Assembly (NCBI GenBank): GCA_934702165.1
Contig: CAKUYG010000016.1
Span: forward strand, 1 to 20,819
Reading direction: 5' to 3'
Origin: an uncultured Bacteroidales bacterium
GTDB taxonomy: Bacteria; Bacteroidota; Bacteroidia; Bacteroidales; UBA932
DNA: 20,819 nt
The notes under the pieces are model-generated. The model ran no database searches. It saw nothing but the letters and a program-made list of their open reading frames with translations, and was not told the origin of the DNA. The translations under genes were made by a program, and so were the position numbers. Shown here piece by piece: positions 4,364-20,748 of the stretch. Every line of letters begins with the position of its first letter. Within the stretch, counting starts at the first letter, position 1.

Positions 4364-4915
4364 CTATATTTTCAATTGTCTTATAATGCTTTGAATATTC
4401 TCCAGAAACATAGCTCCGTGCCCTCCATCCATCTGGACATGATGAAACTGGAAAGAGACAGGAAGGGTTGTCTTGAAGAAGCCCTTGCGATAACGCCCCC
4501 ACAACACCATCGGGTTGTTGAAACCTTTGGCATATTGGTTGACTATGCAGTCCAGCTCTGTCTGCACCATCGCCGATGTTCCTATAACCATCATCTCACT
4601 GTCCAGACAAAGGTTTTCACATTGCAATGCGGCCTTTCCCGTAATGGAACGGTAGTCGCTGTTGAACAGTTGCAGATCATCGCTATACGGAATATTGCAA
4701 TAGTTGATGCCCCCTTTGCGATTTACAACGACAGGGCCGACCGCAATACGATCGAAGCGGAACATCCCGTCTTCAACAGGCAGGTCAAAGAATTCCGGAA
4801 TCCCTGATGCAGCTTTCCCGATGCACCAACACATAAGACTGTTGAAAGAAATGCCTCGACGCTTGCTGAGCCGCATTCTCACGTCACAAAGGTACGGACA
4901 AACATTGAAAAGCAA
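4364..4915 (-). pseudogene. 5'-truncated chloramphenicol-acetyltransferase-like (CatA family) gene
   Basis: The frame encodes 183 residues and can only start at a TTG (4915), directly after an in-frame TGA two codons upstream. It ends with QFHHVQMDGGHG followed by MFLENIQ, matching the HHxxxDG catalytic-histidine motif and the C-terminal helix of type A chloramphenicol acetyltransferases. RGISFNSLM near the start matches the CAT segment that follows the N-terminal beta strands. Intact family members are about 205-220 residues and begin with a conserved Arg-Lys-x-His-Phe-type helix. That part is missing here, and no frame upstream encodes it recognisably. The region is AT-richer than its neighbours. 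It is probably a decayed or 5'-deleted acquired gene; a short functional O-acetyltransferase is possible but unlikely. Nothing shows that it gives drug resistance. Confidence 0.65.
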
Positions 4916-6453: not shown

Positions 6454-8442
6454 TCAGTTCTTTGCAGGCTTGACGGCACCAAGGCTCTGAGGAAGCCATA
6501 CGGACATCTCCCCGTCGCCGCGGTGAGCCCAAGCATAATACGGGATCATAGACACCTCCACCTCCCTTGTCTGGAGCCGGCCCTTGTCATCATAGTACAG
6601 AGACTGGCCGGAAGTCTTGATCATGTCGATGCCGTTGAGCATCTCAGGCTTTTTCTCGACCCTCAGCTCAGGATTTTCAGGCAGGAGGAGACTCTGCATC
6701 CGGAAATCATTGTCGGGCCATTCAGCACAATATACAAGCGGTCCGCGCTCCACGGCGATCCTGCCCCTGTCGGCCCCCACCAACGGGTTGGCCTTCACGA
6801 TGCGCGGCTCCATGTCGAACTCGATATCGACCTTGTCACCCTTCTTCCAGGTCCGGTCGATGCAGAGGTAACCGTTGTCCATCTTCTTCTCCACTTCGAC
6901 CCCGTTCACCTTGACGGTGAATCCGGACTTGGCATTATCGGCGAAACTGTACAGGTCGCTCGGAACAACCTCGTCCTGCAGCCATCCGGGGATTCGGAGC
7001 CTGAGGGTGAACTGCTGCTTCCTGCGCGGTGCGACCTCAACCTGCATCTGTCCGTCCCACGGATAGTTTCCCGTCTGGGTGAGGGCCACCTTCTTGCCGC
7101 CCACTTCAATCTCCGCCTTGTTGCTCATGTAGAGGTTGACATAAACATTGTTGTCTTTCACGGCATATAGGTATCCCGGCAGTGAAGGAATGAAACGGCT
7201 GAGGTTGGAAGGGCAGCAGGCGCAGCCGAACCAAGGCTGGCGGTGGGCCGCACCCTGGCTGAACTTGTACTCGCCGTCAGACTCCAGAGGATTAGGGTAG
7301 AAGAAAGTGCCGCCGTCCATTGACACGCCTGAAATCAGGCCATTGTAAAGAGTACGCTCCAGCACGTCGTAGTACTTGGACTCACCGTGCAGGAGGAAGA
7401 GGCGGTGGTTCCAGTAGACGTTGGCGATGGCCGCACAGGTCTCGCAGTAGGCGGTCAGGTTCGGGAGTTCGTAGTTGTCGCCGAAAGCTTCCCCGTCATG
7501 GCGTGCTCCCAGACCTCCGGTGAGGTAGAGTTTCTTGCCGGTCACGTTGTCCCAGATCCTGTCGATTGCATCGATATAGGCCCTGTCCCCGGTGAGGGCG
7601 GCCACATCGGCCATGCCGGAGTACATGTACAGGGCGCGCACGGCATGGCCCACGGCCTCGTCCTGCTCAAGCACAGGCTTGTGGGACTGGCTGTACTCCC
7701 GTTTCAGCTCGGTCTTGCCCCTGTTTTCAAGGAAGAATTCGGCGAGGTCGAGATATTTCTTGTCATGTGTGACAAGGTAGAGCTTGGCCAGGGCCATCTC
7801 GGCGATCTGGTGACCCGGCACTTTCACCTGCTGGCCGGGGCCGTTGCCGATTTCGCGCGCTACGCAGTCAGCATATTTGATGGCGATGTCAAGGAAGTTG
7901 CGCTTTCCTGTGGCCTGATAATAGGCCACAGCTCCCTCGACCATGTGCCCGAGGTTGTAGAATTCGTGGCTGAGCTCCTCCACCTTCTCCCAGCGCTTGC
8001 TGCCCATCCACTCATGCGGATGCTCAGGATTTCTGGTGCGGAAGGTGTTGAGGTAGCCGTCAGGCTCCTGTGCGGCGGCCACTATGACAAGCACGCTGTC
8101 GATGTACTGTTCCAGTTTCTTGTCAGGATGGGTCTGCAGGGAGTATGCAGCGCCTTCTATCGTCTTGTAGACATCCGTGTCGTCAAAAGAGAGTCCGGAC
8201 ACATCGTTGTCCGCGCTCGGATGCGCCGCCATCACGAAGTTCTTGTACCTTCCGGTCTCTTCGCATTTGCTGAATGCCAGAGGGATGGTCACCTCGCGGC
8301 TGGCCTTGAGCCTCTGCCCCCAGAAGTTGTCCGTCACCTTCACAGAAGTGAAAGGCACGGGGGTTATCGGGTATTCTTGCGCAGTCGCGGTTGCTGTCGC
8401 TGACACGGTGGCAAACGTAAGGAATAATGCTTTAAAGTTCAT
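6454..8442 (-). CDS. GH127 beta-L-arabinofuranosidase, secreted
   Basis: A 662-residue glycoside hydrolase with a signal peptide ending in an Ala/Thr-rich stretch (about residue 22, before QEYPITP). The ATG at 8442 is chosen because it follows an A-rich leader and starts the signal peptide. The longer in-frame extension to 8553 overlaps a SusD remnant read in another frame and is not real. The (alpha/alpha)6 domain carries the GH127 active-site set. By spacing to Bifidobacterium HypBA1 (E322, E338, C340, C417, C418), the residues are E318, E334 and C336 in CETC, and C409-C410 in GCACCPSN, with C409 as the expected nucleophile in a Zn-thiolate site. A beta-sandwich follows. The family removes beta-L-arabinofuranosyl units from plant arabinans or hydroxyproline-linked glycans. 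It sits 13 nt downstream of a susD tail, so it was probably the next gene of a polysaccharide utilization locus. Confidence 0.95.
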   Translation of the reverse strand: MNFKALFLTFATVSATATATAQEYPITPVPFTSVKVTDNFWGQRLKASREVTIPLAFSKCEETGRYKNFVMAAHPSADNDVSGLSFDDTDVYKTIEGAAYSLQTHPDKKLEQYIDSVLVIVAAAQEPDGYLNTFRTRNPEHPHEWMGSKRWEKVEELSHEFYNLGHMVEGAVAYYQATGKRNFLDIAIKYADCVAREIGNGPGQQVKVPGHQIAEMALAKLYLVTHDKKYLDLAEFFLENRGKTELKREYSQSHKPVLEQDEAVGHAVRALYMYSGMADVAALTGDRAYIDAIDRIWDNVTGKKLYLTGGLGARHDGEAFGDNYELPNLTAYCETCAAIANVYWNHRLFLLHGESKYYDVLERTLYNGLISGVSMDGGTFFYPNPLESDGEYKFSQGAAHRQPWFGCACCPSNLSRFIPSLPGYLYAVKDNNVYVNLYMSNKAEIEVGGKKVALTQTGNYPWDGQMQVEVAPRRKQQFTLRLRIPGWLQDEVVPSDLYSFADNAKSGFTVKVNGVEVEKKMDNGYLCIDRTWKKGDKVDIEFDMEPRIVKANPLVGADRGRIAVERGPLVYCAEWPDNDFRMQSLLLPENPELRVEKKPEMLNGIDMIKTSGQSLYYDDKGRLQTREVEVSMIPYYAWAHRGDGEMSVWLPQSLGAVKPAKN

Positions 8443-8455
8443 TTTTTTAGTGTTA

Positions 8456-8575
8456 TTATTTAGTGTATCCATCGTTCTGCTTGAGTTTCTTGTTCTTCTC
8501 CCTCTGGCTTCTCGGGATCGGAAGCAGGGCGCGGTAAGCCTCATTTGTGGCATCGTGGGAAAACCATATACTTTT
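8456..8575 (-). pseudogene. C-terminal remnant of a SusD/RagB-family protein
   Basis: Minus-strand codons from 8575 to the TAA at 8458-8456 read KSIWFSHDATNEAYRALL and continue PIPRSQREKNKKLKQNDGY, then stop. The closing pattern P-[IFL]-P-x-x-E/Q ... L-x-Q-N-x-G-[YW] is the hallmark end of SusD-family starch/glycan-binding lipoproteins, which are normally about 500-600 residues long. Upstream the frame hits two consecutive TGA codons (8581-8576), and no other frame continues the homology before the terminator at 8652-8678. The rest of susD, and any susC, are therefore gone. The fragment ends 13 nt before the GH127 start, the usual spacing inside a PUL operon. It is too short to encode a working protein. 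Confidence 0.85.
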
Positions 8576-8602
8576 TCATCAGTTCCAGCGTCATCAACGT
8601 GG

Positions 8603-8633
8603 CTAATTTATAAATAAATCCGGAAACGGCAAC
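8603..8633 (-). promoter_or_regulatory. Weak promoter candidate upstream of the SusD relic and GH127
   Basis: On the minus strand GTTG (8633-8630), a 19-bp spacer and TAAATTAG (8610-8603) resemble TTTG-N19-21-TAnnTTTG with one mismatch in each element. It is the only promoter-like pattern between the upstream terminator and the GH127 start, and could have replaced the lost PUL promoter. Confidence 0.2.
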
Positions 8634-8651
8634 ACCTGTGCAATACAGAAA

Positions 8652-8678
8652 AAGGCCTCCCTCTGTACGGGAGGCCTT
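8652..8678 (-). terminator. Strong intrinsic terminator of the BACON-protease-lipocalin operon
   Basis: A perfect 10-bp stem, AAGGCCTCCC (8652-8661) with GGGAGGCCTT (8669-8678), encloses a 7-nt loop. On the minus strand it is followed by a T run (TTTTTC). It lies 24 nt after the stop of the last operon gene and insulates it from GH127. Confidence 0.9.
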
Positions 8679-8702
8679 CAAATCAACCGAAACGGGGCGG
8701 AC

Positions 8703-9173
8703 CTAAAGCAGCCGTCCGCCCTCCATTCCTCGGGCCTTGGTGACAAGCTTCGCGCCCACCTTGGCCTCCTCCGGCACAGCCTGCTTCATATATTCCTGAG
8801 TCTCACGCACTTCCCCGATGCTCGTCAGCACCAGACGTCCGGCGCTTCCGTCGTACTCATACTCATAGCTGCTTCCCCACGGGGTGCCGTCGCTGTAAGC
8901 GCCTTCCAATGTCTCCCAGTCCGCAGAATAAGTCCCGGTGTACTTCTGCCAGCGCGGGCTCTGGACCTTCTGCCATAGGATGAAAGTCCCGTCAGCACCG
9001 AGATCCAGATATGCATCGTAGTCCGTCGGTGTCTGCCCTTCGAAAGACACGAGATGCCACTCCCCCGCTATCGTCTCGGCTGCAGTAGGAGAATTCTTCT
9101 TGCAGCCGGACAAAAGCAGGGCGCCTAAAAGGCCCAGACTGAGCAAAGCGGTTTTTATTGTGTTTCTGTACAT
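8703..9173 (-). CDS. Lipocalin-like lipoprotein
   Basis: A 156-residue protein with a lipoprotein signal peptide; the lipobox LLSGC gives a lipidated C24. The mature part, from IAGEWHLVSFEGQ onward, has the short Gly-x-Trp beginning and the alternating beta-strand pattern of small bacterial lipocalin-like domains (about residues 35-125): GTFILWQ, KYTGTYSADWETL, YEYEYDGSAGRLVLTS. The Gly-x-Trp is the structural signature of the fold; the ligand cannot be inferred. It is the third gene of the operon, starting 12 nt after the protease stop, and is followed by a strong terminator. It may bind a peptide or lipid product or act as an accessory to the two preceding lipoproteins; that is inference from position only. 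Confidence 0.8.
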   Translation of the reverse strand: MYRNTIKTALLSLGLLGALLLSGCKKNSPTAAETIAGEWHLVSFEGQTPTDYDAYLDLGADGTFILWQKVQSPRWQKYTGTYSADWETLEGAYSDGTPWGSSYEYEYDGSAGRLVLTSIGEVRETQEYMKQAVPEEAKVGAKLVTKARGMEGGRLL

Positions 9174-9185
9174 ATTCGTTCGTTT

Positions 9186-11210
9186 TTATAACCATCCTCC
9201 ATTGCTGCTCGCAGCGCTACGGGAGATGATGGCGAAAGTCTTCTTCACCTCAATGCCGCCCATTTCCGCGCCGCTGCCAGGCTTGTCACCTCCGGCAACA
9301 GCCGTCACGGTGACCTTGGCCGAACCGGGCTTGCCGCAAAAAATCACAAGATTACCATCCTCCACGCGTGGAGTTCCCTGCACATCCAGCCTTCCCATAT
9401 CAGCCTTGTCCATATTGACAGACAAATACGTAAGACCGGCATAGCCCTGTCCGAAATACGCGGACAGAGGCAACTCTTCCTCCTTGCCGGCCACCAGCCT
9501 CAGGCAAGGCGTACCTTCTATCTGCATCAGCAGCTGAAAAGCATCCACAGCCCCGCTCCCCATCTTGTGGTAATAATTCTTGTAATTGTCGTTCTTCGAC
9601 ATGGCCCCGTCGATGTCGTTGACTGACGTGAGCAGCATGTCCCTGAACTCAGGCATGGTGAACTTCTTGCCGAGCTGCACCGCATAAGAGAGCCCCAACG
9701 CCGCGACACCGGAGACATGCGGACACGCCATTGACGTACCCTGAGAGAAGCCATAGTCCTCTCCGCCGTTCACCTCCGAAGGCATGGTGGAAAGTATCTG
9801 GGAAGAAGTCCTGCTCTTGTCCACAGCTATAAGGTAATCTCCGCCGGGAGCCGCAATGTTGCAGCCCGGGCCGAAGTTTGTATAATAGGCAGGCATGAAG
9901 TTCGGAGCGAAAGCCGTCACAGAGATGTAATCACGATACGCCCCCGGATAGGCGGAACGGGGCGCCGCATCATTGCCTGATGCGAATATCGCCAGGTTTC
10001 CATACGAGAGCGCAGGACAATTGGCCTTGTGTTTCGTGAAATAATCGATCGCCTCCTTCTCAAGACTGCTGAGTGAGGTATACTGGTTGTCCGAGACGAA
10101 ACGTCCGGAACTGTAACCGTAGGAGCATTGTATGATGGCAGCACCCATATCGGCCGCATAGCGTATCGCACGCGCTATCGCCACAGCCGAGCCGGTCTTG
10201 TTCATGTCCTCACCGGAGAAAATCTGGCAGGACATGAGCCTCACTCCGTCTCCCTTACCGCTGCCTCCGGCAATACCGGCAACACCCTTGCCGTTGTTGT
10301 TGACAGCTGCCACAGTCCCTGCGACATGAGTTCCGTGCCCGGAATCACCCTTGTTCTGGCCGGCCACCCAATACTCCTTGTTCCAGCTAATCGGACCGTT
10401 CGTGACAAAGTTCATCCCGTAGATGTCGTCCACATAGCCGTTTCCGTCATCATCCACACCTTTCTGCCCGTTTCGCTCGGCCTCGTTGACCCACATGTTT
10501 GCCCGCAGGTCCGGGTGGCTGTATTTCACACCCTCGTCGACGATGGCCACAACCACGCTCGGGTCACCCCCAGTAAGCGCCCATGCCGGGTCGGCATTGA
10601 TGTCCGCTCCGGCCACAGCCCCCACGGCCACATCGGAAGAACCGGAGTTGTTGTAATGCCACTGCTGCGGCAGCAGCGGGTCGTCGAACATGGTCTCCGT
10701 ACCGGCCGCAAGAGGCCTGGCAGCACTATGGTACGGGGTGATCTTCTCCCAGTTGCGCTGCATCTGTACGTCAAACTCCACAGCCTCGACCTCCCCCAAT
10801 GCAGACAGGCAGAGCGCAGCCTCATCCAGATCGGCATCATCACTGAAATGGACAATGTACCAGCGGTGCAGTCCGGCCTCACGCGCCTCCTGCTCAAACT
10901 TTGGGATCAACGGGAAAACCCTCTCCAGCGAGGAAACCCCGAGTTCATCAAGAACATCGTCCACAGCCCCGATCCCGGAGCGGGTCAACGGTTCACCGGA
11001 GCGGGTATGGACGGTCTGTTCAAGGCTCGACACGGCCTCGTCGCCGAAGCGCACTATGAGCCGGCCGGTACCTGCATTTTCAGAAGAATGGATGATTTTT
11101 TCCTGCACGCAAGACGGCACGGGTAATCCCGTGCCGCTTTCCAATGTTTCAGTACAGGAGATTGCAGCCAACGCGATAGCCGCCAGTGCAACTGCTGATC
11201 CTGCTTTCAT
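9186..11210 (-). CDS. Subtilisin-like S8 serine peptidase, lipoprotein
   Basis: A 674-residue protein beginning with a lipoprotein signal (AAISC, lipidated C19). Residues about 45-165 form a prodomain-like region, including GRLIVRFGDE and a VEAVEFD strand typical of S8 inhibitory prodomains. The S8 domain (about 200-560) has the complete triad: D225 in VAIVDEGVKYSHPDL, H292 in SGHGTHVAG and S493 in SQGTSMACPHVSG, with oxyanion N413 in ASGND. A Ca-binding-like DDDGNGYVDD sits at about 253-262. The C-terminal 110 residues form a beta-rich Ig-like module without a visible type IX secretion tail. Anchoring by the N-terminal lipid, on the periplasmic or outer face, is therefore expected. It starts 3 nt after the stop of the BACON lipoprotein, implying translational coupling. 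Substrate unknown. Confidence 0.95.
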   Translation of the reverse strand: MKAGSAVALAAIALAAISCTETLESGTGLPVPSCVQEKIIHSSENAGTGRLIVRFGDEAVSSLEQTVHTRSGEPLTRSGIGAVDDVLDELGVSSLERVFPLIPKFEQEAREAGLHRWYIVHFSDDADLDEAALCLSALGEVEAVEFDVQMQRNWEKITPYHSAARPLAAGTETMFDDPLLPQQWHYNNSGSSDVAVGAVAGADINADPAWALTGGDPSVVVAIVDEGVKYSHPDLRANMWVNEAERNGQKGVDDDGNGYVDDIYGMNFVTNGPISWNKEYWVAGQNKGDSGHGTHVAGTVAAVNNNGKGVAGIAGGSGKGDGVRLMSCQIFSGEDMNKTGSAVAIARAIRYAADMGAAIIQCSYGYSSGRFVSDNQYTSLSSLEKEAIDYFTKHKANCPALSYGNLAIFASGNDAAPRSAYPGAYRDYISVTAFAPNFMPAYYTNFGPGCNIAAPGGDYLIAVDKSRTSSQILSTMPSEVNGGEDYGFSQGTSMACPHVSGVAALGLSYAVQLGKKFTMPEFRDMLLTSVNDIDGAMSKNDNYKNYYHKMGSGAVDAFQLLMQIEGTPCLRLVAGKEEELPLSAYFGQGYAGLTYLSVNMDKADMGRLDVQGTPRVEDGNLVIFCGKPGSAKVTVTAVAGGDKPGSGAEMGGIEVKKTFAIISRSAASSNGGWL

Positions 11211-12909: not shown

Positions 12910-14589
12910 TCAGTTTGAGAACCGCTTACGGTACTGCGATGGAGATGTGCCTTTGATCGCCTGGAACAGGCGATAGAAAGTGGAAAGGGACGTGAAGCCC
13001 AGTCCTGAGGCCACAGCCTTGATGGGAGTCTGGTCAGAAGGGTCTGAGAGGATGGTGGCCGCTTCCTCTATCCTGTAAGAATTGATATAATGCACAAAGG
13101 AAAGCCCGGTATAGCGCTGTATCACCTCTGTCAGGTAGGTCCGGTTTGTCTGTAGCCGGTCCGCCACGCTCTCCCGGGTAAGACCGGGATCACGATACAG
13201 TTTATCATACGTCATCAGCTTCTGGAGGCCCTCGAAAAGATCGCGCATCCTGCCCTCCTGCGAATCACTCTCCTCTGAGCGTCTGGACTTCGCTTCAGGC
13301 TGCCTGCCATCAAGCTGCTCCTGGAAGCGCTTCAGCATCTGGATGTTCTGCTTGTTCTTCCGATAATAGAGCACGCCTCCCAGAGCGATGAGCACGAGGA
13401 TGAAGACCGAACTGATGAGAACCGCCGTAAACTTGTGTTTCCAGCGCAACTCCTCCATCTCATGCTCTTTCAAGCCGTTTTCGTACCGCTCCCGCTCATA
13501 CTTCATCTTCATCTCGTTCACTGCCCTCTCCTTTTTCATACTGAAAAGGCTGTCGGATTCCGCATGGAAATACTTGTAGCAGTCGAGCGCCCGCCTATAA
13601 TCACCGGATTTTTCGTACAACTCCGCAAGGCTGCGATAGACCAGATACGACTTCGATGAACGGTTGGCATGCCTGGAAATGCGCAATGCCTGCTGAAGCA
13701 GGGTGATGGCGGAGTCTGTCTGACCGCGTCGGCCCAAGTAGGCGGCATAGCCCACGTGCGCATCAATATCCGAGAACCGACCGGAATCCTCCCCTTCGGA
13801 AAGCGCCTTGCGATAATAGCTTACCGCTTGGTCTTCTTTCCCTTTGGCAGAAAGGATGTCCCCATAGAGAGCATATACTCCACGCTGGTCGCCATAGTAG
13901 TCCACCTGATCCAGGACTTTGTCTATATAGTGACCGGCACTGTCGCACTGCCCCAACATCTCATACATATACGCAGAGAGCACCGCCCCGAGATAACGGG
14001 CAAACGGATGATTGTTCTCCTCTCCGAACCGGTATACGTCCAGCGCATAAGGCAGGCCGGATTCGTCTCGCCGCATATAATAGGCAAGGGCAAGATTGCT
14101 TTCCAGCGGGAAGAGACGGCTCTTGTCATCACATCTCCGCGCATAGTCTATGCCTTCCGTCAAACTGCCGATAGCCTTCTCATAATCCATCTGAGCAAAA
14201 GCCTGATAGGCGCCCTCGGTGTTGTAAAGAGTGGCCAGAGCCCACCAGTCTTGCTCGCTTCTGGCCATCTTCTCACCCATGGAAATATATTTCCACATCG
14301 AGTCTTCCTGACCTGTACGCAGATAGAAGCTCTGCGCCTTGGCCACCATGCCGTAGAGCTGCACCTTGGTATCCTGCGTGTGCATCCCATAGCGGTAGAG
14401 GCTGGCGGCCAGACTGTCGATGGCATCCACATCCTGCGTGGCCAGACCCTCTTTGAGTTCGTTGCGCAGGACTTCCACCCTGGCGGAAGCGCCGTCATCC
14501 GCACGCCGGACTTCACGACGTGAGCAGGCAGAAAACAGCATCGCCGCGGTCACGGCGGCAAGCATCAGGATATTGACCTTACTGCGCAT
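12910..14589 (-). CDS. TPR-transmembrane-AraC membrane-anchored transcription regulator
   Basis: A 559-residue protein. It has an N-terminal signal with a lipobox-like LFSAC (C22), then about 330 residues of helical TPR-type repeats (for example EDQAVSYYRKALSEGE and YRRALDCYKYFHAESD), a charged coiled coil, one membrane helix (about 387-408), a short linker and a C-terminal AraC-type HTH (about 460-556). The HTH is visible in TRESVADRLQTNRTYLTEVI and SLSTFYRLFQAIKGTSPSQY. The layout suggests a periplasmic TPR sensor and a cytoplasmic DNA-binding domain in one chain; no kinase or receiver is present. Its ATG (14589) lies inside the 3' end of greA (11-nt overlap), so translation is probably coupled. 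It is encoded immediately upstream of the BACON-protease operon, its most likely target. Confidence 0.9.
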   Translation of the reverse strand: MRSKVNILMLAAVTAAMLFSACSRREVRRADDGASARVEVLRNELKEGLATQDVDAIDSLAASLYRYGMHTQDTKVQLYGMVAKAQSFYLRTGQEDSMWKYISMGEKMARSEQDWWALATLYNTEGAYQAFAQMDYEKAIGSLTEGIDYARRCDDKSRLFPLESNLALAYYMRRDESGLPYALDVYRFGEENNHPFARYLGAVLSAYMYEMLGQCDSAGHYIDKVLDQVDYYGDQRGVYALYGDILSAKGKEDQAVSYYRKALSEGEDSGRFSDIDAHVGYAAYLGRRGQTDSAITLLQQALRISRHANRSSKSYLVYRSLAELYEKSGDYRRALDCYKYFHAESDSLFSMKKERAVNEMKMKYERERYENGLKEHEMEELRWKHKFTAVLISSVFILVLIALGGVLYYRKNKQNIQMLKRFQEQLDGRQPEAKSRRSEESDSQEGRMRDLFEGLQKLMTYDKLYRDPGLTRESVADRLQTNRTYLTEVIQRYTGLSFVHYINSYRIEEAATILSDPSDQTPIKAVASGLGFTSLSTFYRLFQAIKGTSPSQYRKRFSN

Positions 14590-15052
14590 CGACGGTCACA
14601 CTTTCAATTCTCAGCTGAAACGTCCCCGACGGAGCATGTACATCCACCACATCCCCGGCTTTCCCGCCCATAAGAGCTTCACCGATAGGGGACTTCAGGG
14701 AAATTTTCCCTTCCTGGAGATTCATCTCGTGAGGGCTGACAACCGTATACGTCATCCTGGCTCCAGTCTTCAGGTTGGTGAACTCCACCCGGCTCAGGAG
14801 ATTGACCTCGCCCTGCGGCAGCTTGTCCGTGTCGATGACCCTCGAGAACTGGAGAACCTTCTGCAGAAAGCGTATACGGCTGATGGCCTTGGCCTGGGCA
14901 CGGCGCGCAGTACGGTACTCGGCGTTGTCGCTCAAGTCCCCTTGGGCACGCGCCTCGCAGAGTTCATCCTTGATCCTCGGATACTCCTCATCAATCAGTT
15001 GTTTGAGCTCGGCGACAATCTGGTCGTGACGCTCCTTCGACAGATATTCCAT
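14579..15052 (-). CDS. greA: Transcription elongation factor GreA
   Basis: A 157-residue protein, the normal GreA length (about 158). The ATG at 15052 (MEYLSKERHDQI) is preferred over an upstream in-frame ATG that would add 24 atypical residues. The N-terminal antiparallel coiled coil (about 1-75) carries the acidic tip in GDLSDNAEY, the residues that reach into the RNA polymerase secondary channel. The C-terminal FKBP-like domain ends with ISLKSPIGEALMGGKAGD, the conserved GreA/GreB signature. It rescues backtracked polymerase by stimulating transcript cleavage. Placing a specialised membrane regulator in an 11-nt overlap behind this housekeeping gene is unusual. Confidence 0.96.
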   Translation of the reverse strand: MEYLSKERHDQIVAELKQLIDEEYPRIKDELCEARAQGDLSDNAEYRTARRAQAKAISRIRFLQKVLQFSRVIDTDKLPQGEVNLLSRVEFTNLKTGARMTYTVVSPHEMNLQEGKISLKSPIGEALMGGKAGDVVDVHAPSGTFQLRIESVTVDAQ

Positions 15053-15184: not shown

Positions 15185-16390
15185 ATGGAGAAGTTATTTC
15201 AACGGCACGATGATTATATGAGAGTCACACCGACAGACTATGTTCGCGACTTCATGAGACGAGTCAACTGGGACAGCAGGCTCATATGCATAAAAGGGCC
15301 GAAAGGTGTCGGAAAATCCACACTGCTCAAGCAACGGATCAAACTCAACTACGCTGAAGGCGACCGGCACATCCTTTACTGTTCGGCCGATTCCGGATAC
15401 TTTTCCAACCACACCTTGCTGGACACGGCTGAAGACTTTGTCAAAATCGGAGGCACACACCTTTTCATTGACGAAATCCACAAATACGACAAATGGAGCG
15501 TGGAAATAAAGGAGATCTATGATCTCTATCCCCAACTGCATGTGGTCTTGAGCGGGAGTTCCCTGCTGGCTCTGAAAACCGGTCTGGCGGATCTTTCCCG
15601 CCGAATGCTGCAGTACGACATGCCCGGGCTGTCTTTCCGAGAATATCTGCATCTCGAAAAGGGCTTTGACCTGCACCCGGTAGAGCTTGAAGGACTGCTT
15701 GAAAAGCCCTCCACTTTCTGTACGCGAGTGAGGGAACGCTGCAATCCACTTGAACATTTCCCGGAATACATCAAAAAAGGGTACTATCCATTTTACTTTG
15801 AAGACAGGGTAGCCTACGCACCGAGAGTGGAAAATGTCGTCAATTTCACCATAGAGAATGAACTGACATCACAGTGCGGTGTGGACATGGCAAACACACG
15901 CAAGATAAAGGCTCTGATGCAAATCATCTCAGGGATGATACCCTTTGATGTCGACATAGCGAAAATGTCCCGCAATCTCGGCCTGCAAAGACTAACCCTA
16001 CTGCAATATCTCAAACATCTTGAGGACGCATATCTGATACGGCGACTGTTCGCCAACCTATTATCTACCAGAGATTTGCAGAAACCGAACAAAATTCTGC
16101 TGGACAATCCGAATCTTATATATGCCCTATGCCCGACCACCCCAGAGATTGGGACTGTGAGGGAAACATTCTTCTGCAACCAGCTTGCATCCGCCGGACA
16201 TGTGGTGGAATATGGTGGCATGAAGACGGCAGACTTCAGGATTGACGGCAAATACGTCATTGAAGTAGGAGGAAAAGACAAGGGATACTCGCAGATTGAC
16301 CGGAATGAAAACGGATATGTCGCAGCCGACGGCACCGACTCGGCCGTTTTCCGCAAAATACCACTCTGGGCATTCGGATTTCTGTACTGA
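15185..16390 (+). CDS. AAA-type ATPase with C-terminal DUF4143-like nuclease-fold domain
   Basis: A 401-residue protein; the ATG at 15185 (MEKLFQRHDDYM) lies just after the promoter-like region, and the longer in-frame start at 15095 is in intergenic repeat DNA. Walker A GPKGVGKST is at 38-46, Walker B HLFIDEIHK has D96/E97, and the sensor-like VVLSGSS is at about 120-126. A winged-helix-like middle part (KMSRNLGLQRLTLLQYLKHL) precedes a C-terminal region with E327, D350 and E360 in YVIEVGGKDKG. This pattern resembles the PD-(D/E)XK fold of the ATPase/DUF4143 family, where it is often degenerate. Biological role unknown; members are common, mobile and frequently duplicated in Bacteroidales. 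It is solitary, with no toxin or restriction partner next to it. Its stop is 2 nt from the stop of the convergent sensor gene. Confidence 0.88.
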   Translation: MEKLFQRHDDYMRVTPTDYVRDFMRRVNWDSRLICIKGPKGVGKSTLLKQRIKLNYAEGDRHILYCSADSGYFSNHTLLDTAEDFVKIGGTHLFIDEIHKYDKWSVEIKEIYDLYPQLHVVLSGSSLLALKTGLADLSRRMLQYDMPGLSFREYLHLEKGFDLHPVELEGLLEKPSTFCTRVRERCNPLEHFPEYIKKGYYPFYFEDRVAYAPRVENVVNFTIENELTSQCGVDMANTRKIKALMQIISGMIPFDVDIAKMSRNLGLQRLTLLQYLKHLEDAYLIRRLFANLLSTRDLQKPNKILLDNPNLIYALCPTTPEIGTVRETFFCNQLASAGHVVEYGGMKTADFRIDGKYVIEVGGKDKGYSQIDRNENGYVAADGTDSAVFRKIPLWAFGFLY

Positions 16391-16392
16391 CT

Positions 16393-19300
16393 TCAGCTCC
16401 TTTTCTTGAACTCAGACGGGGTGCAGCCGAACTCTTCTTTGAAGATCTGACGGAAATACGCAAACGAGCTGATGCCGATGTTCCAAGCCGTCTCGGAGAC
16501 ATTGAACTCCCCGGACGAGAGCATCTCCGCAGCCTTGCGGAGTTTTATCTTGCGTACATAGTCGTTGGCTGAGACCCCTGTGAGGCTCTTGAGCTTACGG
16601 TAGAGGGACGAGACACTGACATTCATGTGGGCGGCCATGCTGCTGATGTCCAGATCCTCGGAGGAAAGGTTCTCCTCTATGTAGGCTGTGAGCTTCTGCA
16701 GGAACTTGTTGTCCAGAGGAGAGAAGCCGTTGTCCTGTTTCGGCCCGGGGCCCGCCGGACTGTTGATCTGATGCATGTACTGCCGGGCAAGCTGACTGCG
16801 CGAAAGGATCAGGTTCGCGACTCTTGCCTTGATCAGTTCACTGGTGAACGGTTTGGTAATATAGGAGTCTGCGCCCACCTTGTAGCCCTCGCTCTTGTCG
16901 CTCAAAGTGTCCTTGGCCGTCAGGAGCACCACCGGTATATGGCTGAGACGGATGTCCGCCTTGACACGACGGCACATCTCCAGACCGTCCATCTTCGGCA
17001 TCATGATGTCACTGATTATCACGTCCGGAATAAACTGTATGGCTGCTGCAAGCCCCTCCTCTCCGTCAGATGCCTGGATCACCTCATAATCACCGGAAAG
17101 GATGGTGGAGAGGTAATCCCGGATGTCAGCATTGTCCTCCACCACGAGCACCCGCTGCGCTGAAGAGTCGCCTTCTGTCTGTCCCGTTCCCGTCTGTTCG
17201 CGGCTCTGCTCGGCCTGCATCGGGAGGCGTACGGTGAAACAGCTTCCCCTGCCTCTCTCACTGTCCACACTGATGTTGCCCCCATGCTGTTCGACAAACC
17301 TCTGGACGATGGAAAGCCCTATCCCGGAACCGTTTATGTTCTCCCTCCCCGGAACGCGGTAATACCTCTTGAATATCTTGCCGAGCTGGTCAGGGGCTAT
17401 ACCCTCTCCGGTATCGGCCACCGTGATCACAGCCTCGGCCCGTCCGTCTTCCACCGCAGTGTGAAGCCCCAGCGTCACCTCACCCTTCCTCGTATATTTG
17501 AAGGCATTCGACAGCAGGTTGTTAAGTACCGATGAGACTATCTCCCTGTCGAATGACATGAACACGTCACTTTCCACATCGAAGCGGATGTCAAGTTCCT
17601 TATTGGTATTTGATTCGGCAAACACCTTACCGATGCTCATGACGAATCCGCTCAAGTTGCCCCAGGCCGGATTGAAGCGGACGCTGTCGGTCTCGGCCAT
17701 CCTGAAGTTCAGGAGTTTGTTGATCAGTTCCATCAGGTTCCCCGCATTCTTGTATATGAGGGACAGCTTGTGCCTCGCAGACTCGCTCAGGCTTGTGTCG
17801 CCGATCATGTCTTCGGCGGGGCCGAGAATCAGAGACAACGGGGTCTTGAGCTCATGGGTGACATTGGTGTAGAACCGGAGTTTCTCCTCATTGACCTCCC
17901 GGATCTGGGCAATTGCAGCCTTGTCCATACGCCGGCTCGTCACAGTCCGTACCACGAAGAAGCACAACACCCCTAAAACAATGGCATAGAAGATTATGGC
18001 CGGCATGCTCATCCAGAACGGCGGGGCAATGCTGACATTGAGTACAGCTTCGCACACGAGATTCCGGCTCCACGGGTATCCGGCTTTCACCCGTAAAGTG
18101 TACCGCCCCGGAGAAAGCTGGAGAAACGACAGGGAACGTCCGTCGGTGCGATGCCAATCCTTGTCAAGCTGGTCGATCTTATAATAGTACCTGAGATTGT
18201 CGGCCTTGGAAAAATCATCTGAAGTGAACCTCACCACAAAATTGTTCTGGTACCAATTCAGCCTGACCTGATCCTGGAAGGGCATCAGCACAGGCGCCTT
18301 CCCGCCACCCTGATGGTTACGGCTGTCCTTCACCTCGATAGAGGAGAAATGTATCGGGGTCGGCCTCTCTGAATCCATCACCGACCTGTCCAGGAAGACT
18401 ATCCCGTCCGAAGACCCGAAAGCGATGAGGCCGTCATCCCGCAGAGCGGCGGCCCCCAACGAGAAACTGCCGTGCAGGTAACTCATTCCAGCAGTATAAT
18501 CCACCGCCCTGCCGTCACGCAGGAAACCAATCGACTTCGCCGTAGTGAACCAGATCGTGCCCGCCTTGTCCTCAAGTACCGACATTATGGCCTCCGAGAT
18601 CATCGGACCGCCATCTGCATATTGCTGGTACGAAAAACTGTCCGCATCCGGAAAACAGATCAGTCCGTTGTCCGTCGCCGTCCAGATCCTGCCGGCACTG
18701 TCCTGGATTATATGGTTCACCGCCCCGGACGGGAATCCGCTGTCGGAGTTGAAATGCGCGAGCAGATTAAGCTCAGCATCAAATACATACAAGCCCTGAC
18801 GGTATGATCCCACCCAAAGCCGCCCGCGGCTGTCCCGGCAGATGGACTTGAGATAGTTGTCATAGAGCCCATTACCGGTACTCAACCTCCGCTCCGCCCT
18901 GAAAGTCTTCCTGTCGATTGACCAGAGCCCTGACACCCCGGAAGCCGCCCACACCTGTCCTTCCGACTCGCAGAAGCCGCGCACCTCACCTATCTGGATA
19001 GCAGCCTTCAGCTTCAAGGTGCTGTCCACGACAGCTATCCCGTTGTTGAATGTCCCTGCCCAGAAAAGGCCTGAAGCGTCTTTGAAGGTGGAAATCACAT
19101 TCTTGTCCGGAAGGGAGGCCACTTCACGGCGCATCAAGTCCGTGTCCGCACCGACAAGGCTGATCCCGCCTCCGTCCGTGCCGGCCACAAGATTTCCCCC
19201 GGCGGTAAACTCCAGTCCCCTGACAAGTTTCTCGGGGAAATCCTCCGGATGACGGACCCCGAAGATCCCCGAATGATTGGGGGACTTATAATACAAGCCC

Positions 19301-20325
19301 TTCCCCGCAGAGCCGAGATAGATATTGCCATACTTGTCCTCAAGCATGGAGCGGATGCCGATGTCGCTCATCCCCTCGGGCATGACGACCTGCCTGAAGC
19401 GTGGAGCCCCTTGGGAAAGATCGTCAAGATCCATAGCCCAGAGGCCTCTGGTGTCCGGTGAGGCGAGAATGCGGTTGTCGGAAGTGCGCATCACGGAGAA
19501 AAGGATGCCGTTCGGCAAACCGGACGAGGCCTCGTTGAAAACCGTAAAATCCTTGGTGACCGGACGGAAAAGGGCAAGTCCGCGCCCGGTCCCAAGCCAC
19601 ACATTGTTGTCCTTGTCGATGAAGATGCATCCGATCCCGCTGTTCGGAAGGCCTCCCGGTTTCCCGGTACGCACATACTGCTCAGCCGTCATGGTCTCGG
19701 GATTGATCACAGCGAACCCCTCACCGAAAAAGCCAGCATACACCTTACCGTCCGGAGAGAGTTCGATGCACCTTATGTTTCCCTCCGCCATACCCTTTAC
19801 AGTAGAGCTGTTGAAAGTGGTGAATGTACCGGAAGTGCTGTTGTAGCGCCCCACACAACCTGTATATGTGCTGAACCAGATATCACCACTGGCATCCTGC
19901 TTCAGGCAGGTGATCTCATCCGAGAGCGGAGAGTCCGGGTTGTTCCTGTCATGCCTGAAGAACATGGACTCCCCCGTCCTCCAGTCGAAATACCCGAAAC
20001 CGTCCCGCTTGGTGGCGAACCACACCCGATCCTGAAAACGGTCAGCAAGCACGGCATTCAGCTCGTTGCCGGATATCACCCCGCCCCCTCTTGTATATTT
20101 CACCATCTCGGAACCGTCATAGCAGGCCAGTCCGTTCTCGGTGCCGATCCACAGCCGCCCGTAGCGGTCAAAATCCAGAGAGAGAACATAATCGCTCGGC
20201 AGTTCATCCCTGAACGAACCCCAGGAACACAAGAATGAATTAGAGACCTCCCGCCCGGAAAGTGAGGGCAGGAAGGACAATGTCAGGGCTATAAGGCCGG
20301 AAAGAAATGCGGTTCGGTGTGCCAT
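16393..20325 (-). CDS. Hybrid two-component system sensor-regulator (HTCS)
   Basis: A 1310-residue one-chain sensor. A signal peptide (about 1-24) leads into a periplasmic part made of two seven-bladed propellers of Reg_prop repeats, for example GRLWIGTENGLACYD, NNVWLGTGRGLALF and RIWTATDNGLICF. A Y_Y_Y domain follows at about 696-765, then a membrane helix at about 775-795 and HisKA with H824 in NVTHELKTPLSLI. The HATPase has an N box at about 936-945 and DTGEG. The receiver has phospho-acceptor D1106 in ISDIMMPKMDG and K1158, and the C-terminal AraC HTH (about 1205-1310) ends GCTPSEFKKR. Such proteins sense glycan fragments in the periplasm and activate polysaccharide utilization loci. The ATG at 20325 is preferred over 20346 because a promoter-like box ends only 3 nt upstream of the latter. 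No susC/susD pair adjoins it here; its target may lie beyond the right edge. Confidence 0.95.
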   Translation of the reverse strand: MAHRTAFLSGLIALTLSFLPSLSGREVSNSFLCSWGSFRDELPSDYVLSLDFDRYGRLWIGTENGLACYDGSEMVKYTRGGGVISGNELNAVLADRFQDRVWFATKRDGFGYFDWRTGESMFFRHDRNNPDSPLSDEITCLKQDASGDIWFSTYTGCVGRYNSTSGTFTTFNSSTVKGMAEGNIRCIELSPDGKVYAGFFGEGFAVINPETMTAEQYVRTGKPGGLPNSGIGCIFIDKDNNVWLGTGRGLALFRPVTKDFTVFNEASSGLPNGILFSVMRTSDNRILASPDTRGLWAMDLDDLSQGAPRFRQVVMPEGMSDIGIRSMLEDKYGNIYLGSAGKGLYYKSPNHSGIFGVRHPEDFPEKLVRGLEFTAGGNLVAGTDGGGISLVGADTDLMRREVASLPDKNVISTFKDASGLFWAGTFNNGIAVVDSTLKLKAAIQIGEVRGFCESEGQVWAASGVSGLWSIDRKTFRAERRLSTGNGLYDNYLKSICRDSRGRLWVGSYRQGLYVFDAELNLLAHFNSDSGFPSGAVNHIIQDSAGRIWTATDNGLICFPDADSFSYQQYADGGPMISEAIMSVLEDKAGTIWFTTAKSIGFLRDGRAVDYTAGMSYLHGSFSLGAAALRDDGLIAFGSSDGIVFLDRSVMDSERPTPIHFSSIEVKDSRNHQGGGKAPVLMPFQDQVRLNWYQNNFVVRFTSDDFSKADNLRYYYKIDQLDKDWHRTDGRSLSFLQLSPGRYTLRVKAGYPWSRNLVCEAVLNVSIAPPFWMSMPAIIFYAIVLGVLCFFVVRTVTSRRMDKAAIAQIREVNEEKLRFYTNVTHELKTPLSLILGPAEDMIGDTSLSESARHKLSLIYKNAGNLMELINKLLNFRMAETDSVRFNPAWGNLSGFVMSIGKVFAESNTNKELDIRFDVESDVFMSFDREIVSSVLNNLLSNAFKYTRKGEVTLGLHTAVEDGRAEAVITVADTGEGIAPDQLGKIFKRYYRVPGRENINGSGIGLSIVQRFVEQHGGNISVDSERGRGSCFTVRLPMQAEQSREQTGTGQTEGDSSAQRVLVVEDNADIRDYLSTILSGDYEVIQASDGEEGLAAAIQFIPDVIISDIMMPKMDGLEMCRRVKADIRLSHIPVVLLTAKDTLSDKSEGYKVGADSYITKPFTSELIKARVANLILSRSQLARQYMHQINSPAGPGPKQDNGFSPLDNKFLQKLTAYIEENLSSEDLDISSMAAHMNVSVSSLYRKLKSLTGVSANDYVRKIKLRKAAEMLSSGEFNVSETAWNIGISSFAYFRQIFKEEFGCTPSEFKKRS

Positions 20326-20348
20326 GCGGTCAGTTTTTTTTAACATCT

Positions 20349-20356
20349 CAAATATA
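20349..20356 (-). promoter_or_regulatory. Candidate HTCS -7 promoter box
   Basis: TATATTTG on the minus strand, 23 nt upstream of the chosen ATG at 20325, fits TAnnTTTG. No clean -33 TTTG is visible at 19-21 bp. The position argues that translation starts at 20325 and not at 20346. Confidence 0.4.
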
Positions 20357-20652
20357 AGAAGTCTAATCTTAAGAGAAAACAGCCGGCCGAAGTCCCACAC
20401 GACTGTATCCGCCCAAAAACCGCCTCAGAAAGGTCAAAAGCCGCATCCTGGCATCGCCGCTTTACCGCATGCTCTCCACTCCCTGTAGTCGTAAGCCGGC
20501 TCTTCTGGGGCTTATGCCCCGGCATTCCCGACAAGACCGCCAAACCTCCCCAGCTCCGCAAATATACACAAAATAGTCTCCGGGGCGAACTCCCCCGTGC
20601 GGCTCTCCGTGAAGCGGTAGCAGGAGACGATGTCGTCGGAGCCCCAGAGCGA

Positions 20653-20748
20653 CTCGTCCCGTCCCCATCCTCGTCCCGTCCCCATCCCAGTCCCAGAGGG
20701 TCCCAGTCCTCGTCCCAGTCCCCATCCTCGTCCCCATCCTCGTCCCGT
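20653..20748. repeat. C-rich degenerate hexamer repeat (G-rich on minus strand)
   Basis: About 15 imperfect hexamers of the type [CT][CA][GA]TCC (CCATCC, TCGTCC, CAGTCC and similar) run nearly uninterrupted, with one break at CAGAGGG (20694-20700). The minus strand contains GGGACTGGGATGGGGACGGG (20694-20675), four G runs with 2-3 nt loops, which fits the canonical G-quadruplex rule. Confidence 0.85.

Follow-up and report, generated by a model that had tools for sequence, protein, structure and literature searches.

This analysis revealed that the window, by which we mean the whole stretch of 20,819 nucleotides analysed, carries a real, sharply bounded piece of a susD gene beside an intact GH127 gene. 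This piece, at positions 8566–8459 of the minus strand, codes for the 36 C-terminal residues of a SusD protein and runs up to the SusD stop codon. The best explanation of this arrangement is probably a deletion in place that removed susC and most of susD. The locus comprises the following features, all on the minus strand:

6454–8442, minus strand: intact GH127 gene of 662 aa with three GH127 domains (Pfam, reading frame)
8443–8455, minus strand: spacer of 13 nt between the remnant stop codon and the GH127 start
8456–8458, minus strand: stop codon of the remnant, with a second in-frame stop directly after it
8459–8566, minus strand: SusD C-terminal remnant of 36 codons (WFSHDATNEAYRALLPIPRSQREKNKKLKQNDGYTK), corresponding to residues 511–546 of the 546 of protein P0007
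8567–8575, minus strand: three open codons K-S-I, not SusD according to the SusD alignments
8541–8579, minus strand: mini-ORF of 12 codons (MKKYMVFPRCHK and a stop) that enters the remnant in another frame
8603–8633, minus strand: weak Bacteroidetes-type promoter-like match from a motif scan (GTTG, 19 nt, TAAATTAG)
8651–8679, minus strand: terminator-like hairpin after the S8 protease and lipocalin-like genes (1 found, 0.4 expected)
8703–9173, minus strand: lipocalin-like lipoprotein gene, the upstream neighbour (Lipocalin_4 at 19.2 bits, below the cut-off of 22.4)
9186–11210, minus strand: S8 subtilase gene, lying 5' of the lipocalin-like gene (Pfam)

The minus strand is open over 39 codons from 8575 to 8459 and then reaches the stop at 8458–8456. 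These codons, their stop and the 13-nt gap to GH127 are present as given in a preliminary description of this DNA, which had assigned about 39 codons to the C-terminal signature of SusD; the homology holds, but it extends over 36 codons rather than 39. In Pfam, the segment matched profile positions 265–297 of the 297 of PF07980 (SusD_RagB) with an E value of 8.2e-5 and 22.8 bits, just below the curated cut-off of 23.1 bits. A search of the segment alone against approximately 5.8 billion proteins returned P0007 as the single match among 2 candidates (E 5.5e-13). P0007 is a complete SusD of 546 aa with the domains PF07980, PF14322 and PF12771. When P0007 was compared with the window by BLAST, 32 of 36 residues were identical (72.8 bits) and the alignment ended at the last P0007 residue. 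As a control, 177 of 200 shuffled windows also matched P0007, with a top score of 26.9 bits versus the 72.8 bits observed. A scan of viral contigs with P0007 gave no match.

The C-terminal signature of the SusD family, with PF07980 just under its cut-off and P0007 identical at 32 of 36 positions, is thus present. With regard to the SusD/RagB lipoproteins, which bind glycans at the outer membrane (PF07980, PF14322), the remnant represents their C-terminal end and has P0007 as its nearest full relative, whereas about 93% of the protein, including the N-terminal part, is absent from the window. A full protein of approximately 530–550 aa with its N-terminal domain is not encoded, as homology ends at 8566.

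Since none of the 36 codons is damaged, the segment could be taken for a small gene or leader that still has a function. We consider this extremely improbable. No ATG, GTG or TTG occurs in the 39 codons of the remnant frame, which is closed just upstream by stops at 8578 and 8581, and the segment aligns with the C-terminus of a protein of 546 aa. There is consequently no translatable gene with its own start, and the remnant, lacking a usual start codon, is probably not translated by itself. We also rejected a leader RNA with a function of its own, since the fold of 8443–8600 is unremarkable (z 0.24) and a scan of the window at gathering scores gave no Rfam family.

The position of the break can be given to the base. 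P0007 and the SusDs of L014, L064 and L065 all begin to align exactly at base 8566, and that of L190, one of the four SusDs tried besides P0007, gave no match to the remnant. In the codons K-S-I directly upstream, K-S could be read as homologous to SusD with one inserted residue. This was rejected on the alignment of P0007 with 25 locus rows (21 places, four of which were fetched twice): in P0007 and all 25 rows, K-S/N is directly followed by W/R, while the window has an extra I. As none of these sequences has a residue between K-S/N and W/R, K-S-I was assigned to the region outside the SusD homology, and the alignments place the SusD-side break at 8566/8567. The junction had been sought previously between about 8575 and 8652, a range that is slightly off. 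Direct-repeat pairs were detected near the break at 8443–8453/8456–8466 and 8498–8506/8657–8665, in addition to the terminator hairpin; none of these repeats lies at 8566/8567 in a search that covered 281 bases at one end.

Between the hairpin and the break lie the 13 bases ATGAAAAAGTATA, and ATGAAAAAGTAT occurs only once in the window. The first 13 bases of the mini-ORF may represent the start of a lost first gene beginning with ATGAAAAAGTAT at 8579. The promoter-like match at 8603–8633 was scored with what we take to be the Bacteroidetes promoter consensus; an equally good match was obtained in 346 of 2000 shuffles, and it is not evidence of function. A sigma-70 scan found no site on the minus strand and one on the plus strand.

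The GH127 gene is complete and encodes a putative beta-L-arabinofuranosidase that would cut plant sugars. It starts with the ATG at 8442–8440, and Pfam assigned to its product a catalytic domain (PF07944, 4.9e-127), a middle domain (PF20736, 4.6e-27) and a C-terminal one (PF20737, 9.8e-26), in agreement with the earlier view that the hydrolase had stayed intact. Among solved GH127 structures, the best match was 6ex6 chain B, which covered residues 23–657 of 662 with 1067 bits, followed by 4qjy and 3wkw. The protein has a CETC motif at 333 and a GCACC motif at 406, which may belong to the Glu/Cys3 zinc-binding site of GH127. A near-identical GH127 of 662 aa from another record, P0008, differs at 3 of 662 positions, which indicates that the gene is real and whole. 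Many relatives carry a C-terminal extension that the 662-aa protein lacks: among the best 120 of 7998 relatives, 70 measure 790–809 aa and 38 measure 660–669 aa. Since these 38 are also short, the length of the window protein was not taken as damage.

The tail is not fused to GH127, as had been suggested, because the two frames differ. The GH127 frame is open upstream to 8607, and the TGA of the mini-ORF (8543–8541) overlaps an ATG at 8544–8542. This raises the very unlikely prospect that the old susD codons, read out of frame, became a new 5' leader of GH127, in which the 12-codon mini-ORF (8579–8541) would end with its TGA overlapping the in-frame ATG at 8544. If so, 34 residues would precede the signal peptide, and the amount of exported enzyme would be altered.

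A further susD piece was not detected, the next SusD matches in the window being no better than E 0.59, so that the rest of susD is missing upstream as reported. Five SusC queries likewise found no susC piece, the best match in the window (E 0.078) falling in the ATPase gene at 15185–16390. An adjacent susC-susD pair, as expected of a polysaccharide utilization locus, is therefore absent.

Intact relatives were found elsewhere. The GH127 loci compared were the best 80 among the matches listed, and 116 locus rows were obtained overall, some places being represented twice. SusD was the nearest upstream plus-strand ORF in only 3 of the 116 rows (L014, L041 and L064), and 6 rows had no such ORF. 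These three loci, two from Massilibacteroides (L014, L041) and one from Flavobacterium daejeonense (L064), have a complete susC-susD-GH127 order with SusD-GH127 gaps of 174, 132 and 96 nt, respectively, compared with 13 nt and only the tail in the window. A Parabacteroides locus (L003) has the order susC-susD-GH127-GH127 with a gap of 14 nt, the first GH127 being 48% and the second 72% identical. In all four loci, as in the window, a SusD stop lies shortly 5' of a same-strand gene of the GH127 family; there, susC stands in front. Four Cryptobacteroides-type loci (L190–L193) exhibit susC-susD followed within 65–72 nt by a different GH127 of 43–44% identity to that of the window, and look like one syntenic locus. 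In L190, L191 and L193, the three genes come directly after ribosomal-protein-type genes, named by eye from their translations.

The SusDs of the intact susC-susD-GH127 relatives are 36–42% identical to P0007. In other genomes, P0007-like SusDs directly precede genes of the GH127 family and are themselves preceded by susC, which makes it reasonable to assume an ancestor with susC-susD-GH127. A P0007-like SusD occurred somewhere in the stretch in 17 of 80 GH127 loci, a count that is not claimed as an enrichment, SusDs being frequent in such genomes. The comparison with related genomes that had been proposed thus yielded the expected gene order in eight loci, but no intact version of the window locus; the genomes searched included no proven member of the window's genus.

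On this basis, the window would descend from an ancestor with a polysaccharide utilization locus arranged as susC-susD-GH127. We infer that a single deletion took susC together with susD codons 1 to approximately 510, or some 4.6 kb assuming gene sizes as in relatives. This would have left the 36 last susD codons, the stop, the 13-nt spacer and the whole GH127 gene. The deletion would have its left end at 8567 or further upstream, possibly four codons inside a gene starting with ATGAAAAAGTAT at 8579. Of the scar of a deleted locus that had been proposed, the lost susD with its tail before GH127 is well supported, and the deletion in place is conjectured from it. The loss of susC is likely, judging from the intact relatives in other genomes; that no susC piece is left at the locus counts against it. 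The low number of GH127 rows with a SusD next to them (3 of 116) and the missing match of the L190 SusD also speak against a deletion in place, and the latter, like the failure to find the lipocalin-like gene and GH127 in one fetched locus, lowered its likelihood slightly.

Alternatively, the susD tail and GH127 may have been copied or moved together from a utilization locus elsewhere into the space after the S8 and lipocalin-like genes, with the tail as a passenger and no deletion at this site. Among 58 genomes of the Cryptobacteroides type that carry a close GH127, 4 have a P0007-like SusD (E 1e-100; 39–42%), and in 4 of 4 the closest GH127 lies on another contig than that SusD, which speaks for such an import. 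By their gene order, the four Cryptobacteroides-type loci support a pairing of P0007-type SusD with GH127, yet they count against a simple conserved locus. GH127 neighbourhoods also vary widely, and the lipocalin-like gene and GH127 occur together in no fetched locus, the flanks being mostly 1.5 kb. Nevertheless, no transposase or integrase was found in 14 Pfam-scanned segments of the window, the search for repeats covering the 281 bases at one end. In addition, the listings give an 'lgn' contig of 13170 bases for each of two sister proteins, the lipocalin-like P0003 (79%) and the GH127 P0034 (74%). The equal size would place both on one contig and suggests that they are neighbours in a sister lineage, a weak hint of an old adjacency of the two genes. 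Import is, in our assessment, unlikely, although it is the alternative that deserves most consideration.

A wrong assembly join of two unrelated pieces near 8567–8650 is improbable to a greater degree. It would accord with the neighbourhoods of GreA in relatives: three that were fetched share no gene order with the window, the only matches being two weak ones in an AraC domain in L184 (30–32%), and the L183 contig spans just 7478 bases. Against such a join, the sister-lineage GH127 and lipocalin-like proteins are listed with equal contig size, and the near-identical GH127 is known as a protein from another record.

The window GreA was 75% identical to that of G002, 71% to that of G001 and 65% to that of G1081, whereas no other genome tried exceeded 43%; matches were obtained in 15 of 16 genomes of one set and 10 of 12 of another. 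The identities of 75% and 71% place the window near Cryptobacteroides-type genomes; L066, a locus of G001, bears the title Candidatus Cryptobacteroides caccocaballi. The protein (14579–15052, minus strand) is a second type of GreA: it is 65–75% identical to one copy in each of these three genomes, each of which also has a distant copy (33–37%). Other proteins were less informative, SbcC being too divergent for genome comparison and the S1/P1 nuclease matching in 1 of 8 genomes tried. The lipocalin-like protein matched in 5 of 393 genomes (E 1e-3), 19 of 398 (E 1e-20), 11 of 200 (E 1e-20) and 4 of 51 (E 1e-15), in draws that overlap; the listed genome matches were at most 45% identical, and the protein collection contains relatives at 74–85%, without context. 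The S8 subtilase and lipocalin-like lipoprotein genes (8703–11210) are adjacent in relatives as well, with more than one pair in some genomes.

Elsewhere in the window, a hybrid two-component regulator is encoded at 16393–20400 (minus strand), 8 kb from GH127, with propeller, Y_Y_Y, kinase, receiver and AraC-type HTH domains. Such hybrid regulators often adjoin sugar-use loci. Imperfect tandem repeats with periods of 12 and 17 lie upstream of the regulator gene at 20653–20746. At 4364–4915 (minus strand), a weak match to the chloramphenicol-acetyltransferase family (24.0 bits, cut-off 23.5) lacks the first 43 profile positions.

Among the papers listed by a literature search, none dealt with this locus, and no wider claim is made. 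The locus is most likely a gene-decay scar, a further example of a familiar type of event, namely ordinary gene loss, and not a new system. Taken alone, it changes no general view; its exact susD break point is easily comparable in sister strains. Should the deletion in place be correct, the uptake pair for the enzyme product would be gone from the locus, while GH127 survives whole and may still be expressed. This would illustrate a route by which sugar-use loci decay, with the uptake pair lost and the enzyme kept, and the cell might then rely on a different transporter or cut glycan to the benefit of others.
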